Positions 9,225 to 23,938 of a stretch of DNA of 64,000 nucleotides are shown piece by piece; positions within the stretch are counted from its first letter, which is position 1, and every line of letters begins with the position of its first letter. This DNA is from Sporanaerobium hydrogeniformans (GTDB lineage: Bacteria; Bacillota; Clostridia; Lachnospirales; Cellulosilyticaceae). Made by a program: the position numbers and the translations under genes. The notes under the pieces are model-generated. The model was not told where the DNA came from, did not search any database, and worked only from the letters and a program-made list of their open reading frames with translations. The DNA lies in NCBI RefSeq assembly GCF_002735925.1, contig NZ_PEDL01000016.1:1-64000 (forward strand), given 5' to 3'.

Positions 9225-10520
9225 CTATTTTTCATCTATTCTTGCTTCTAATAAAGTATAAATCTCACCAATCATATACAGTGAGCCAAAGGCAACTATT
9301 CGACTTTCCAATCTGGTTTGACTGAGCTTAAGTGCTTCTTCTATAGCCTCACTTATATCTATTTGACTGTGTACTTCCTTATGATGCTTCTTTACCTCTT
9401 CAACAAGCTCTTCTAAAACTACTGCCCTTTTACCTGGGGGTAAAGTTACAATAAGCACATCAAAATAAGGTGCCACTAAAGTAACCATTTTATCTATCTC
9501 TTTATCCTTCAAAATTCCTATAATCCCTATATTATAGCAAGGCCTTAGATGGCTTAGAGTATTTACCAAGGCTCTTATGCCATCTACATTATGTGCTCCA
9601 TCTACATAAAAATCCGGCTGATTCATAACCTTTTCAAAGCGTCCTTGCCATTTAGCAGCCTGAAGTCCTTTTTTGAGTTGTTCTCTTTTTATAGTTATTA
9701 TCTTTTTATCCTTTAAAATTTCAATAGCTTTTATTGCCAAACCTGCATTATGTGCTTGATGTATTCCTATCATTTGCAAGTCATAAGGCTCACCTTGCCA
9801 TTTAAAATGAGTTCCTTCTTCATTTAAAGTAACCTCTTGAAGCTCTGAACTTTCTAAGCAATAAAGAGTCGCTAAGCGTTCCTTACAAGTTTCCTCAAAA
9901 ACCTGCATGACATCAGATGTTTGAGCCCATACCACCACACATCCCCTCTGTTTTATAATTCCAGCCTTCTCTCTTGCAATTTGAGGAAGGGTATCTCCTA
10001 ATATTTCTTTGTGGTCTATAGCAATAGGTGTAATAATAGAAAGAAGTGATTTAGAAATGACATTCGTCGCATCAAAGCGCCCACCTAATCCTACTTCTAG
10101 TACAACAAAGTCTACGTCCTCCTCTAAAAAATAAAGAAAAGCTGTAGCTGTTAGTGCTTCAAAATAACCCAAGGCATCATAGCCATAATTTTTTGCTTTT
10201 TGGTTGGCCCTTCTGACCTTATCCATACAAAGCCAAAGCTTCTCATCTGAAATCATCTCATCATTAATACATATGCGTTCATGTAAAGTCACTAAATGAG
10301 GAGAGGTAAAGGTTCCTACCTTATATCCTCCTTCCTTTAAGATACTCTTTATAAACTGAGTAACAGAGCCTTTTCCATTGGTTCCTGCTACATGAATGAT
10401 TTGAAGCTTATCCTGAGGGTTACCTAAAAGCCCCATAACTGCTACCATATTTTCTAAGCCCAATTTAACACCAAAACTTCCCAAGCTCTCTAAATAACTT
10501 TGAGCTGCTATTTTACTCAT
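9225..10520 (-). CDS. folC: Bifunctional folylpolyglutamate synthase / dihydrofolate synthase
   Basis: 431 aa, the usual FolC length. The P-loop reads HVAGTNGKGSVTQF near residue 45, followed by TFTSPHLVTLHERICIND and the Mur-ligase-like central motif EVGLGGRFDATNVI. The C-terminal domain carries YVDGAHNVDGIRALVNTL. It adds glutamates to folates using ATP in the cytosol. The ATG overlaps the stop of the 43-codon gene at 10513-10644 by 8 nt, so its translation is probably coupled to it and, through it, to bioY. Confidence 0.95.
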   Translation of the reverse strand: MSKIAAQSYLESLGSFGVKLGLENMVAVMGLLGNPQDKLQIIHVAGTNGKGSVTQFIKSILKEGGYKVGTFTSPHLVTLHERICINDEMISDEKLWLCMDKVRRANQKAKNYGYDALGYFEALTATAFLYFLEEDVDFVVLEVGLGGRFDATNVISKSLLSIITPIAIDHKEILGDTLPQIAREKAGIIKQRGCVVVWAQTSDVMQVFEETCKERLATLYCLESSELQEVTLNEEGTHFKWQGEPYDLQMIGIHQAHNAGLAIKAIEILKDKKIITIKREQLKKGLQAAKWQGRFEKVMNQPDFYVDGAHNVDGIRALVNTLSHLRPCYNIGIIGILKDKEIDKMVTLVAPYFDVLIVTLPPGKRAVVLEELVEEVKKHHKEVHSQIDISEAIEEALKLSQTRLESRIVAFGSLYMIGEIYTLLEARIDEK

Positions 10521-10644
10521 TCTCTTTCCTCACGTTCCTATCTAAAAATAATGCCTGCTTTTCTAATGCACAAATACCTTCGCTATACCCCTTCCCTCTG
10601 TAAAAGGCAAGACATAATAAATGATGTGGCCTAAGCTTTAACAT
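10513..10644 (-). CDS. 43-aa overlapping small gene resembling a DUF1284 N-terminus
   Basis: The frame fills the whole gap between bioY and folC. ATG at 10644 lies inside the end of bioY (14-nt overlap) and the TAA at 10513 overlaps the folC start by 8 nt. It begins MLKLRPHHLLCLAFYRGKGY, which matches the N-terminal signature of DUF1284 proteins (LRPHHLLC..F.GKGYS). Those are normally about 120-140 aa and have later cysteine motifs. Here the product ends after 43 residues (ALEKQALFLDRNVRKENE). AGGA precedes the start by 4 nt. It is either a truncated DUF1284 relic kept for translational coupling or a genuine mini-protein. Confidence 0.6.
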   Translation of the reverse strand: MLKLRPHHLLCLAFYRGKGYSEGICALEKQALFLDRNVRKENE

Positions 10645-11182
10645 GTTGTCCTATAACTCCCTTAAGCATCACTTTCATTTTAGAAGCTACTAAAATAGCA
10701 ACTGCTGTTAAAATAAGATCTTTTATTATAAAAGGATAAACCCCTGCTGCAAGTGCTTGGTGAAAAGTCATTTTTACTACAATTGCTAATTGAATAGCAC
10801 CCATTATATAATCTATTATAAGTCCTACATAAGTTGCAATCCATAAAATAAATTTATTTCCCGATTTAGCACCCCAACCAGTAATAAATGCCATTACCAC
10901 AAAACCAATAATAAAACCACCTGTAGGTCCTATTATCATTTGAAAACCTCCCTTAAAATTAGCAAAAACAGGTAGCCCAATTCCTCCTAATAACATAAAA
11001 GTAAATAAAGCTAAACTTGCTAATTTTTCTTCTAATAAAATACTAATGAGAACTATGCCAAAGGTTTGTAAGGTAATAGGGACTCCAAAAGGTAGTGGAA
11101 TAGCAATTTGTGAAAATACCACCATAAGTGCTGTACATAAACTAACTAAAGTTAACTTTTGAACTGAAAACTTATATTGCAT
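10631..11182 (-). CDS. bioY: Biotin ECF transporter substrate-binding subunit BioY
   Basis: 183 aa, mostly membrane-embedded (about six segments). It shows BioY signatures PFGVPITLQTFGIVL near residue 32 and GGFIIGFVVMAFITGWG in the middle. The ATG at 11182 is used because AAGGAG lies 8 nt upstream; the longer frame would start at a TTG inside that site. BioY is the biotin-binding S component, working alone or with the shared EcfA/A'/T module, which is not in this window. A BirA-type operator and a consensus promoter lie directly upstream, so biotin should repress it. Confidence 0.95.
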   Translation of the reverse strand: MQYKFSVQKLTLVSLCTALMVVFSQIAIPLPFGVPITLQTFGIVLISILLEEKLASLALFTFMLLGGIGLPVFANFKGGFQMIIGPTGGFIIGFVVMAFITGWGAKSGNKFILWIATYVGLIIDYIMGAIQLAIVVKMTFHQALAAGVYPFIIKDLILTAVAILVASKMKVMLKGVIGQHVKA

Positions 11183-15529: not shown

Positions 15530-16153
15530 CTACTTTTGACTTATAAATTTTTCTATTCTTTTTTCTACACCTTCTTCACCTGTTACAATAAACACATCCC
15601 CTTCTTCAAATACTGCATAAGGTCCAGGAGACATAATGAGTCGGTTATTTCTTTTAATTGCAAGTACTGTACCATGTGTATTTTGCCAAAACATCACTTC
15701 ATTAATTGTCTTTCCAATAATCCAACTCTCCCTAGGTATTGTAACTTCAAATTGATGAATAACAGCCTCATAATTAGACTTTTTATTTAACCTAAACATT
15801 TGATTAATAATCTCTTCAATTTGTTCATTCAGTTTATTTCTTTTTTCAGTTAAATCCTCTAATTGTTTCTTTAAGATTTCATAATCATTAACCCTTTTAA
15901 AATTAATCATATAATCTTTAGCTTTTTCTTTAGAAATAACTACAACTCCACTGTTTTTTTGGACTTCTACAATTTTCATATCCGCTAGCAATTTAAATGA
16001 ACGTCTTATAGTTTCAGGAGAAACCCCATACTCTGATGACATAACTGAACGTCCTAATATTTTAGTGTTCTCTTTTAATTCTCCTGATGCAATTCGATTT
16101 GCAATATCATGTGCAATTTGAGCATATACAGGTGGAGTAACAACATTATTCAC
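15530..16153 (-). CDS. busR: BusR-like GntR regulator with RCK_C domain (c-di-AMP responsive)
   Basis: 207 aa in three parts. Residues about 8-75 are a GntR winged helix (YAQIAHDIANRIASGELKEN, YGVSPETIRRSFKLLADMKI). About 95-125 is a charged coiled coil (KKQLEDLTEKRNKLNEQIEE). About 128-205 is a TrkA-C/RCK_C domain (PRESWIIGKTINEVMFWQNT, FEEGDVFIVTGEEGVEKRIE). This architecture is that of BusR, which in Lactococcus and Streptococcus represses a glycine betaine importer when c-di-AMP is high. Placement directly upstream of an OpuC-type operon supports the same role. It overlaps the phosphatase gene by 8 nt, so both are co-transcribed. Confidence 0.88.
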   Translation of the reverse strand: MNNVVTPPVYAQIAHDIANRIASGELKENTKILGRSVMSSEYGVSPETIRRSFKLLADMKIVEVQKNSGVVVISKEKAKDYMINFKRVNDYEILKKQLEDLTEKRNKLNEQIEEIINQMFRLNKKSNYEAVIHQFEVTIPRESWIIGKTINEVMFWQNTHGTVLAIKRNNRLIMSPGPYAVFEEGDVFIVTGEEGVEKRIEKFISQK

Positions 16154-16674: not shown

Positions 16675-16723
16675 AAAAAAAGAGTCTTGATATAATAAAT
16701 AAATTTTATCATATCAAGACTCT
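16675..16723 (-). terminator. Terminator of the UroD-thioredoxin / GTPase operon
   Basis: Arms 16681-16693 and 16711-16723 (AGAGTCTTGATAT and its complement) form a 13-bp stem that ends in a T7 run on the minus strand (16674-16680). It lies downstream of the GTPase stop at 16789. Confidence 0.88.
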
Positions 16724-16788: not shown

Positions 16789-17703
16789 TTATAAAAAATC
16801 TTTTACCATATGGGGATACCATTCCATTGCTTTTTTTATTTCTTTTTTTGTTGGGAGCCCTACTCCTGAAAGTACTACAAGATAATCTTCTTGCGTCGGT
16901 ACCTTTAAATAAGGCTGTGCTTCAAACATATTGCCTACACAATTAATGAGATATCTTCCTTGATTTGTATTTACAAATCCTTTTACCCGATAAGTATTTT
17001 CAATAAACATTTCCAAAAACTTTTGAAGACTATATAAATCTACTTGTTCAGAAAGATAGAGTGTGTATTTTCTAAGGGTTATATCCATAGACTGAAATAA
17101 ATCTTCTTGTATATCTTCTTGTTTTTTCATTGTTGTTAGCCATTCCTTTTGGATTTTACCAAAAGTTGTATAGTAAATAGGCACATCTGGTCTATGACTA
17201 TTTAATACTTTTTCTATCTCTTTTGTCTGCTCTTTTGAAATTAAATCTGTTTTATTAATCAAAAATAGGTCACTGACAGCAAGCTGTTTTTTTACTACAG
17301 AAGCAGTTTCATACACTTTGTGAAACTGCTTTCCATCTATAATACAAATACTTCCCTCATACTCCACTTCTGAGAATTTATCCTTCTGCCCTAATATTTT
17401 CTTCACATTTAAAGGATTAGATAAACCTGAGGCTTCTACTACAATAATATCTGGCTGCTGTATTAAAGCACTTTGGAGTACTTCTTCAAATTTATCAAGA
17501 CGGCATGAACAAAAAATAGAGCCATTATTAATCTCATCGAGTACTGTTCCTACCTCTCTTAATAGCTCACCATCTACACCTTCTTTTCCAAATTCATTAA
17601 TAATTAAGTGAAGTTTAGAATCTGCTAACACCTTAATAAGTTCTTTTAGAAATGTAGTTTTACCGGCTCCTAAGAAGCCGGTAATTAAAATGAGTCTACT
17701 CAT
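16789..17703 (-). CDS. COG0523 (CobW-type) GTPase / metallochaperone
   Basis: 304 aa. The P-loop reads ITGFLGAGKTTFLKEL, Walker B IIVVEASGLSNP and the guanine motif FLINKTDL. The C-terminal CobW domain covers the last 90 residues. The usual CXCC metal motif is reduced to CSCR at about residue 68-71, so metal binding may differ. The start is ATG 17703; the longer frame begins at GTG 17721 inside the upstream gene. The UroD-thioredoxin stop is 4 bp before it, so the pair is coupled. COG0523 proteins deliver zinc or cobalt-type cofactors; here the target is probably the UroD-like enzyme. Confidence 0.9.
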   Translation of the reverse strand: MSRLILITGFLGAGKTTFLKELIKVLADSKLHLIINEFGKEGVDGELLREVGTVLDEINNGSIFCSCRLDKFEEVLQSALIQQPDIIVVEASGLSNPLNVKKILGQKDKFSEVEYEGSICIIDGKQFHKVYETASVVKKQLAVSDLFLINKTDLISKEQTKEIEKVLNSHRPDVPIYYTTFGKIQKEWLTTMKKQEDIQEDLFQSMDITLRKYTLYLSEQVDLYSLQKFLEMFIENTYRVKGFVNTNQGRYLINCVGNMFEAQPYLKVPTQEDYLVVLSGVGLPTKKEIKKAMEWYPHMVKDFL

Positions 17704-17707
17704 ATTA

Positions 17708-19069
17708 TTAAAGCACCGCACGAATGGCTGCTTCTAATTCTTCTTTTGCGGGAACAAGAGAACGGAATTTTAATTCGCCATTAATGTACATGGATGGAAG
17801 GTTTGGTACGCCCATTTTCTTACATCTTGCAATGTTTTCTTTTTCTGTAAATTTATACTCTACCATATCAATAGTATCTCCAAAGGTTTCTTTAGCTTCA
17901 TTTGCAGCACCCATCATATAAGTACAAGCTGCACATGTAGCTGAATCTAAAGTAAATACTTCTACCAGTGGTTTTTGTAAATTCGCATAATCTGGAAGTT
18001 CTACTTCAATTGTTTCGTCTTCCGCAACATAATTTTTCACCATTTCTCTTACTGAATCTGTTTCATATACCGCTTGTACAACCCCAATTGTATTTTCTAC
18101 TGGTACTGCAAATGGCATATCACATCCTGGTGCAAGGATAAAGTTCTTTTTATTTTCCATTTTATCAAGAAGGTCAATAACAAACTTCATATTATCTTGT
18201 TGTGTACCATGAAGCATAACAGTTGTAAGTGGAATATTTCCACCAATAACTACGTTGTATTTGTCTGTGATTTCTTTTGCTGCTAATAGATCCACATTCT
18301 CATCAATTGAAATAGAATCTGGTGCAGTTTTACACATTACTTCAATATTTCTTGTAGCATCTCCACATACGAAGAAAGAAGAGAAAGCACCTTTTTCACG
18401 AATATGGGCAAATAAGTTTGCAAATGGTTCATGCATAAATTGCTCAAAGTGATCAGATGAAATTTGAGAAATAAGAGGGTCTACAACAGCAATAACATCC
18501 ATTCCCGCTTCAATATAATAATCTGCCATTTTCATCGCCACTGCGTTACAATAAGCTAAGAACTTTTCGAGTGCTTCTTCATCATCATACATATCCATAA
18601 ATATATTATTACCACGTAAGTGTGTAGCAAGTGTAAATGGTCCACAAATCAAACCATATAATGCAGTTGTTTCTCCTACAGCTTCTTTCATTCTCTTCAT
18701 AACATCAAGAATCATAGGAATTCTTCCTGACTCTTTAGTTGGAATCGTACACATACAAGGTACTTCTAACTCTTCTGCATCTTCTAGTGGATGGCTTGCT
18801 ACAGATGGAGGACCATCATCAGCCCATGTTAAGTCACATCCTAGACATTCAGCTTCTACTTGAAGGTCAAAAATAACAGGCTGCCCTGCAGGCTTATAAA
18901 GCTTATTTACTTCCATTAATGCTTCGAATAGTTTATCACCATTTTGTAACACCTCTGTAGCGTTATACCCAACTAGTTTACCTGAATGAACACCCGCAAA
19001 TGGAACCCATGCCACCTGTTCTGTTGCTTCATGTTTTAATGTTTTAATTAATATTTCTTTTGCTATCAT
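17708..19069 (-). CDS. UroD/MtaA-family methyltransferase fused to a thioredoxin-like domain
   Basis: 453 aa. Residues about 1-345 are a UroD-type TIM barrel of the MtaA/CmuA branch (VAWVPFAGVHSGKLVGYNA, LYGLICGPFTLATHLRGNNI, FILAPGCDMPFAVP). Residues about 365-453 are a thioredoxin-like domain with CAAC (FTLDSATCAACTYMMG) and the cis-Pro loop VPNLPSMYING. MtaA-type enzymes bind zinc through HXC...C and move methyl groups between corrinoid proteins and thiols. The later Cys is kept in LAPGC, but the HXC site reads FFVCGD, so the His is replaced by Phe. True heme-pathway UroD is unlikely. No corrinoid protein gene is nearby. Confidence 0.88.
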   Translation of the reverse strand: MIAKEILIKTLKHEATEQVAWVPFAGVHSGKLVGYNATEVLQNGDKLFEALMEVNKLYKPAGQPVIFDLQVEAECLGCDLTWADDGPPSVASHPLEDAEELEVPCMCTIPTKESGRIPMILDVMKRMKEAVGETTALYGLICGPFTLATHLRGNNIFMDMYDDEEALEKFLAYCNAVAMKMADYYIEAGMDVIAVVDPLISQISSDHFEQFMHEPFANLFAHIREKGAFSSFFVCGDATRNIEVMCKTAPDSISIDENVDLLAAKEITDKYNVVIGGNIPLTTVMLHGTQQDNMKFVIDLLDKMENKKNFILAPGCDMPFAVPVENTIGVVQAVYETDSVREMVKNYVAEDETIEVELPDYANLQKPLVEVFTLDSATCAACTYMMGAANEAKETFGDTIDMVEYKFTEKENIARCKKMGVPNLPSMYINGELKFRSLVPAKEELEAAIRAVL

Positions 19070-23700: not shown

Positions 23701-23711
23701 ATAAATAGACC

Positions 23712-23803
23712 TTGGTTATTTCCCTACGTTGGCATTATCCAAATCAGGTTATGGGTTAAAGCACTACAGCTTACTCTCAGCCCACTTCAGTGAGCACCCC
23801 GTT
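23712..23803 (-). ncRNA. TPP riboswitch (THI-box) controlling thiD-thiC
   Basis: On the minus strand the aptamer starts ACGGGGTGC, has the conserved GGGCTGAGA pyrimidine-sensor bulge, then ACCCATAACCTGATTTGG and ATAATGCCAACGTAGGGAA, the diphosphate-sensor helix. All conserved THI-box segments are present and in order. The extra helix between CTGAGA and ACCC is short. A possible extended -10 promoter (TGATAAGAT) lies about 40 bp upstream. It senses thiamine diphosphate, which is also the cofactor of the transketolase encoded at 565-2300. Confidence 0.97.
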
Positions 23804-23938
23804 TTTATTTATTCTTTTTTCTCACTTATCTTATCACAAAAAATTAAACTTTACCATAAAAATCAATAAATAATAAACATACTCTCATAATACTTTTAAT
23901 GTTTTCTCATGAAAGAATACACAGTCAAAAACTAGAAG

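Follow-up and report, generated by a model that had tools for sequence, protein, structure and literature searches.

Methylcobamide:coenzyme M methyltransferases of the MtaA/MtbA type (structure 4ay7, profile TIGR01463) are the closest described relatives of the gene studied here. The His and Cys of the HIC motif and the Cys of the LAPGC motif serve as the zinc ligands of MtaA. For the S-methyltransferases of the UroD superfamily a His-Cys-Cys zinc site is given in passages of PMC10418091, and a link of COG0523 GTPases with mtaA, mtaB and mtaC was reported in 2009, in a passage of Haas et al. (PMC2770081). The present locus lies on a 64,000-nt stretch of Sporanaerobium hydrogeniformans (contig NZ_PEDL01000016.1, positions 1 to 64,000), hereafter the window. 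It encodes a 453-amino-acid (aa) fusion of a UroD/MtaA-type barrel with a CAAC thioredoxin, for which we use our own name UroT, and a COG0523 GTPase directly downstream. UroT shares with MtaA/MtbA the fold (Z 41.2), two of the three zinc-ligand positions and a neighborhood of corrinoid and methyl-donor genes, whereas it differs by a Phe in place of the His, by a fused or adjacent thioredoxin, by a TGA codon (candidate selenocysteine, Sec) in some relatives, and by a score of 140.7 bits against TIGR01463 (MtaA/CmuA subfamily), below the curated cut-off of 235.4. From sequence comparison, UroT is apparently the Cys form of a selenoprotein family of the UroD superfamily that has been undescribed so far, and it might act on the acceptor side of corrinoid-dependent methyl transfer. 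The gene pair has the following features.

17708..19069, minus strand: UroT, UroD/MtaA-type barrel with C-terminal thioredoxin, 453 aa (open reading frame (ORF), profile matches, phmmer, AlphaFold model)
18062..19057, minus strand: UroD barrel, residues 5-336 (Pfam PF01208, 168.1 bits; 4ay7, Z 41.2, root-mean-square deviation 1.9, 327 residues)
18365..18373, minus strand: F233-V-C235, aligned with the H-X-C zinc motif of MtaA (phmmer and row alignment)
18122..18124, minus strand: Cys316 codon TGT; eight relatives have TGA (candidate Sec) there (codon reading)
17714..17965, minus strand: thioredoxin domain, residues 369-452 (PF13192 above cut-off; 1nho match)
17924..17935, minus strand: CAAC, residues 379-382 (sequence and row alignment)
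16789..17703, minus strand: COG0523/G3E GTPase, 304 aa from ATG, or 310 aa from GTG 17721 (Pfam, YjiA alignment)
17503..17520, minus strand: SIFCSC at the place of the COG0523 CXCC site (YjiA alignment)

A previous sequence-only reading had described the pair as a UroD-type barrel with a CAAC thioredoxin, followed after 4 bp by a CobW/COG0523 GTPase, and both descriptions are borne out. The URO-D match (gathering score 23.9) covers the barrel, while Thioredoxin_3 PF13192 matches residues 376-449 with 25.9 bits, narrowly above the cut-off of 24.8. The GTPase ATG lies at 17703, 4 bp past the UroT stop (the mechanical ORF start, GTG 17721, overlaps UroT), and the protein exceeds the Pfam gathering scores of cobW (PF02492, 131.4 bits) and CobW_C (PF07683, 29.2 bits). 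UroT and the GTPase look like a two-gene unit.

The AlphaFold model of UroT, built from 45 related rows, has a mean predicted local distance difference test (pLDDT) score of 93.2, and its closest solved structure is the Methanosarcina mazei MtaA 4ay7, with 24% identity over the superposition listed above. In the phmmer alignment, LHICG of MtaA pairs with FFVCG of UroT and LAPGC pairs with LAPGC, the Cys of which is C316. The exchange of HXC to FVC (His to Phe) with the LAPGC Cys kept, as noticed earlier, was thus confirmed. Within the zinc triad, the His alone is lost (Phe233), and C235 and C316 are kept. Phe233, C235 and C316 are present in 90/90 aligned rows, two of which (the TGA rows L071 and L076) were entered as Cys, and 89/90 have both cysteines of the thioredoxin, C379 and C382, the exception, L090, being frameshifted. 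These rows represent 87 distinct contigs, since L017/L074, L018/L068 and L020/L080 were each taken, from their length, to be the same contig and counted once. Another 29 loci from a class-wide survey (L122-L150) all carry FVC, PGCD and a fused CxxC domain. Because the His is gone and the Cys pair is kept, the simplest reading of this site is a dithiol or selenol-thiol center. In addition, UroT scores 66 bits against TIGR01464 (uroporphyrinogen decarboxylase HemE), below its cut-off of 302.95, and an NCBIfam 20.0 search gave zero matches above cut-off for the window UroT or for the protein of L200, one of the TGA-form relatives.

The window gene itself is a fused form with TGT (Cys) at position 316, while eight genes from eight genomes have an in-frame TGA exactly at this place. 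L071 and L076 have one in-frame TGA each, and between them 17/312 codons before the TGA and 4/139 after it are nonsynonymous, next to many synonymous differences; the ratio of nonsynonymous to synonymous substitution rates (dN/dS) is 0.024 before and 0.012 after. Coding sequence past the TGA thus appears to be under strong purifying selection in this pair, the one tested. Moreover, tRNA-Sec was found above cut-off in 8/8 TGA genomes, with 3/14 control genomes also positive at the threshold used for the six genomes of the unfused clade described below, and SelB was found in 2/2 genomes tested (L071, L076). From these sequence features, TGA at the Cys316 place probably encodes Sec. If UroT were instead an inactive or decaying UroD paralogue, TGA would be a nonsense mutation or an error; a degraded second copy in the window genome, the frameshifted L090 and a paralogue without both cysteines (L198) would fit. 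Such decay sits badly with a TGA at one same residue in eight genomes, with purifying selection downstream of it in the L071/L076 pair and with tRNA-Sec in every TGA genome, and this reading, already disfavored, deserves hardly any credence.

A selenocysteine insertion sequence (SECIS) element would demand conservation downstream of the TGA. Compared among L200, L201 and L202, codons +4 to +12 past the TGA have conserved synonymous sites in 7/8, 8/9 and 8/8 cases versus 40-50% in the rest of the gene (p 0.04, 0.005 and 0.002; the three pairs overlap and are not independent), and the folding energies of these three genes after the TGA are not unusual. Against a synonymous null, the SECIS folding energy gave z -2.4 for L076 and z -1.5 for L071 (ranks 2 and 9 of 80). 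Among the six TGA genes of the unfused clade, L206 stands out (fraction 0.009), with the other five at 0.18-0.78.

Ten unfused members form a clade of their own (support 0.863) beside three distant fused members, L022-L024 (0.733), in a FastTree tree of the barrel in which all 95 UroT rows group with support of 0.987 against five HXC neighbors; with so small an outgroup, the root is tentative. Of these ten, six (L200, L201, L202, L203, L205 and L206) have TGA at the Cys316 place and four have Cys. A thioredoxin-coding stretch follows eight of them, that of L208 being detected by tblastn only, with no open ORF of at least 60 aa, in surroundings where the genes look broken. The two members without thioredoxin are second copies, with Leu for Phe233 and Asn for Asp317. 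An active-site Cys/Sec exchange together with a fused or adjacent thioredoxin usually marks a residue with redox activity. Since TGA, probably for Sec, replaces Cys316 in relatives, and since the thioredoxin comes as a fused domain or from the adjacent gene, a redox role of this residue gains support. The TGA genes, the tRNA-Sec, the selection past the TGA and the adjacent thioredoxin of the sister clade together suggest that UroT represents the Cys form of a selenoprotein family.

Five of the TGA genomes also contain eight extra thioredoxin-like ORFs in which a TGA lies close to where the first CxxC cysteine is expected. They lie upstream of the TGA-form UroT in L200-L202 and downstream in L205 and L206, at these oriented positions:

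L200, 8276 and 8619: thioredoxin-like ORFs with TGA
L201, 8634: thioredoxin-like ORF with TGA
L202, 6899: thioredoxin-like ORF with TGA
L205, 13017 and 13316: thioredoxin-like ORFs with TGA
L206, 14075 and 14374: thioredoxin-like ORFs with TGA

They are candidates for further selenoproteins; in two of the eight, the second CxxC cysteine is absent too. The HUIPC-motif thioredoxin-like (seleno)protein NF047660 is similar in kind and matches the UroT thioredoxin domain weakly (27.2 bits) and the separate partner in L200 with 30.7 bits; unlike NF047660, UroT has CAAC for HUIPC, and neither match comes near the 105-bit cut-off. As a separate observation, L022-L024 have a 91-aa ORF between UroT and the downstream GTPase; that of L022, the only one whose sequence was inspected, encodes a thioredoxin-like protein with CSAC, next to the thioredoxin already fused to UroT.

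Genes of corrinoid-dependent methyl transfer lie near UroT at part of the loci. Among the 87 distinct loci, 40 have at least one component of a corrinoid system, and the counts for single neighbors are 34 for a corrinoid protein, 33 for a PocR/AraC regulator, 26 for a reductive activase (RACE), 15 for DUF2284 and 4 for MtaB. At the genome level, RACE (PF14574) is present in 37/40 UroT genomes versus 131/351 others (Fisher p 5e-12) and MtaB in 15/40 versus 11/351 (p 3e-10); within RACE genomes, MtaB occurs in 13/37 with UroT versus 11/131 without (p 2e-4), all three tests ignoring the relatedness of genomes. The methyl-donor side is varied: MtmB-like neighbors were found by PF05369 in L096 and L204 and by eye in L102, an MttB-family protein is among the neighbors, and L167 carries PylS, PylB, PylC and PylD directly upstream of UroT and the GTPase. 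The linkage to several kinds of methyl-donor enzyme would fit a role that is general or on the acceptor side, and not one tied to a particular substrate. In the window genome, one contig has a corrinoid protein and RACE, and another has a PocR/AraC-like regulator, a COG0523-like protein, MtaB and a corrinoid protein. Its sole PF00809 match, in a scan that did not search for MtrH-type enzymes, is an 804-aa ORF that we read as MetH-like because PF02607 is also present.

These links, to RACE and to more than one type of methyl donor, may also be explained if UroT transfers no methyl group and instead serves corrinoid proteins as a redox or repair partner, for example by clearing thiolato- or oxidized cobamide next to RACE. 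Dithiol carriers in some clusters, namely thioredoxins and the GcvH-like protein of L200, would suit this role. The retention of an MtaA-type barrel under strong conservation would be harder to account for, and reductive activation is already carried out by RACE, which makes such a partner improbable.

Some further observations concern these clusters. ORFs resembling lipoyl synthase and lipoamide dehydrogenase were seen by eye in L200. In L202, near the TGA-form UroT, an MttB-family gene (oriented 1179-2660, PF06253 in the first part) is split by TAG, as in pyrrolysine MttB. The 734-aa RACE of the window genome (L160, 8679-10883, minus strand) has an extra N-terminal part that resembles, by eye, a MetH-activation-like domain. 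A radical SAM gene neighbors UroT in 25/87 distinct loci; its identification as PylB was dropped, since PylB, the nearest family, scored only 42.5 versus 348.2 bits for the one representative compared.

Combining these lines, we tentatively favor, without rating it as probable, a reading of UroT as an MT2-type (acceptor-side) enzyme of corrinoid systems in which the zinc site was turned into a dithiol or thiol/selenol redox site. The ancestral His-Cys-Cys site would have become a Cys235/Cys316 dithiol, and in relatives a Cys235/Sec316 thiol/selenol. A methyl-corrinoid protein would dock on the UroT barrel as on MtaA, the Cys-Cys/Sec pair would become oxidized in a step coupled to the reaction, and it would be re-reduced by the thioredoxin, which is fused in the window protein and encoded by the next gene in the sister clade. 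The overall reaction might, as a guess, be a reductive methyl transfer to a sulfur species with release of methanethiol, and the adjacent GTPase would serve the metal handling of the system. In glycine reductase and ArsM, Sec or Cys chemistry is likewise recycled by thioredoxin, the folds and substrates of both being unrelated to those of UroT. The suggestion of a redox-gated or differently metallated methyltransferase is hence supported in part, by the MtaA fold, the corrinoid context, the conservation of the fusion and of the GTPase partner, and the probable redox role of position 316; for the added idea of methyl transfer to its own thioredoxin-domain thiol, nothing speaks in favor.

Several observations weigh against this acceptor-side redox reading. 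Forty-seven of the 87 distinct loci, the window included, have no corrinoid gene in the fetched stretch (some stretches being short). The L200 cluster, with a TGA form, also encodes an MtrH-type protein, and UroT would therefore not always be the sole acceptor-side enzyme. Post-TGA hairpins are of ordinary stability in most TGA genes. L209 has, beside a fused copy, an unfused 351-aa copy (9795-10850) that keeps FVC and PGCD and is not followed by a thioredoxin within 300 nt, and the UroT-like paralogue L198 has Glu and Ser at the places of both active-site cysteines; because thioredoxin-less copies are few, and each one read either lost active-site residues or is accompanied, in its genome or stretch, by a thioredoxin-linked form, they leave our assessment unchanged. 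Furthermore, H150 and E257 are invariant in 95/95 UroT rows and could rebuild a metal site, and Sec can in principle act as a metal ligand.

The last two points lead to the GTPase. Downstream sequence of 900 nt or more was available for 80 distinct loci; among them, a same-strand COG0523 GTPase follows UroT within 2 kb in 70 and within 150 nt in 65. Two COG0523 subfamilies fill this place: the window type has S[IV][FL]CxC in 58/60 (two unreadable by pattern), and the other keeps CxCC in 11/12 (one unreadable by pattern). In the window, NGCICCS of YjiA aligns with NGSIFCS, which places SIFC at the CXCC site, so that one of the three cysteines is kept and a new Cys stands two residues further on. 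The CXCC motif is accordingly degenerate, as had been proposed, with SIFC and not CSCR as the aligned residues. COG0523 subfamily 13, in a passage of Haas et al. 2009 (PMC2770081), resembles the UroT loci in that the GTPase adjoins mtaA/mtaB/mtaC and corrinoid genes; the window GTPase differs in having SIFCSC for CXCC and in being paired with a UroD-thioredoxin fusion.

A serious rival, since H150 and E257 are invariant (the five HXC neighbors have other residues there), is that UroT works as a metal-dependent methyltransferase whose site was rebuilt from Cys235, Cys/Sec316 and, as a new ligand, H150 or E257; the GTPase would load the metal and the thioredoxin would only keep the cysteines reduced. 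The window GTPase, without two of the three CXCC cysteines, fits this poorly, and a repeated TGA/Cys exchange with a dedicated thioredoxin is more usual in redox catalysis than for a structural ligand. Still, the GTPase in 70/80 loci, from two subfamilies, and the earlier report of COG0523 with mtaABC (in PMC2770081, as passages show) agree with metal loading, and we regard the rebuilt site as somewhat unlikely yet worth retaining. Methylation of a thiophilic element (As, Se or Hg) on the Cys/Sec pair, with methyl-corrinoid replacing S-adenosylmethionine, would equally fit a Cys pair with thioredoxin, and ArsM and HgcA appear in selenoprotein tables among passages of PMC13188914; the identified neighbors are methyl-donor and corrinoid genes (no systematic search for metalloid genes was made), and this option seems very improbable.

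The UroT family is conserved in anaerobes and is not a local oddity. A profile scan of genome contigs, of which the best 80 of 102 loci were kept, returned mostly Clostridia, then Chloroflexi, Spirochaetes and one Deltaproteobacteria metagenome-assembled genome. In a class-wide sample, 40/391 genomes had a UroT match, the window genome included, one match having internal stops. A phylum sample gave a profile match in 22/378 genomes, from which the weak matches L189, L190 and L191 were rejected as UroT for having HIC instead of FVC; 19 UroT genomes remained, and 7/19 have TGA at the Cys316 place. A family-level search found UroT in 4/20 genomes, two of the four with TGA. G571 and G024 are apparently one genome and were counted once. 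HXC was found in no UroT-clade member read, and the fusion and the GTPase neighbor recur at the frequencies given above, so the doubt attached to the earlier proposal, that most homologues might keep HXC and lack the thioredoxin, mostly fell away, with some thioredoxin-less copies on the other side. The window genome also has, on contig 13, a 352-aa second copy (L015, 7487-8545, minus strand); as both FVC and CAAC are lost, it was rejected as a partner and is a remnant. The UroT copy of L156 has a TAG where a Leu is conserved; this was treated as damage, the copy probably being damaged or an assembly error.

The remaining genes near the pair are a YfcE-family phosphodiesterase, a ProV-type transporter, a low-molecular-weight phosphatase and a GntR/TrkA_C protein, without evident link to UroT. 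The last of these (15530-16153, minus strand) fuses a GntR DNA-binding domain with a TrkA_C ligand domain and adjoins the transporter. Elsewhere in the window, a thiamine pyrophosphate riboswitch (23704-23811, minus strand), just above the gathering score, lies upstream of ORFs resembling thiD and thiC by eye. No cobalamin riboswitch reached the gathering score in the window or in six scanned loci. One further feature, a pattern match only, ends the gene pair:

16681..16723, minus strand: terminator-like hairpin 3' of the GTPase, 19 pairs and a T-run

The fold family and the COG0523-mtaA link are already known. Mlp proteins of type 1 MGCs, as described in passages of Kountz and Balskus (PMC10418091), are similar to UroT as MtaA relatives in corrinoid/RACE clusters of anaerobes with a selenium link (for Mlp, as substrate), and the main text of that paper has thioredoxin once, in a reference, and neither CobW nor COG0523. 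The passages covered of a 2026 review (PMC13188914) do not mention UroD, MtaA or PF01208 and list no UroD-type selenoprotein; those of a 2022 review (PMC9312934) do not mention uroporphyrinogen or UroD, and those of the deep-Sep paper do not mention UroD, MtaA or decarboxylase. Literature searches by title and abstract start gave, among the matches listed, none recognized as describing the UroT family. The Phe-Cys-Cys family, the thioredoxin linkage and the TGA form are apparently new within this scope, outside of which Haft and Gwadz 2023 and Haft and Tolstoy 2025 might mention such a family. It is quite possible, if short of probable, that UroT defines both a new class of corrinoid enzyme, in which the zinc site became a thiol/selenol redox center and, with the thioredoxin, a reductive methyl-corrinoid enzyme arose, and an undescribed selenoprotein family with a Cys form widespread in anaerobes. 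If true, genes likely annotated merely as UroD-family would gain a testable function, TGA forms truncated by gene callers could be recovered, and the TGA/Cys exchange offers a direct handle, through mutation and selenium labelling, on the role of the active site. For anaerobes that handle methanol, methylamines or other methyl donors, UroT would then mark an unrecognized redox branch of methyl-corrinoid chemistry.

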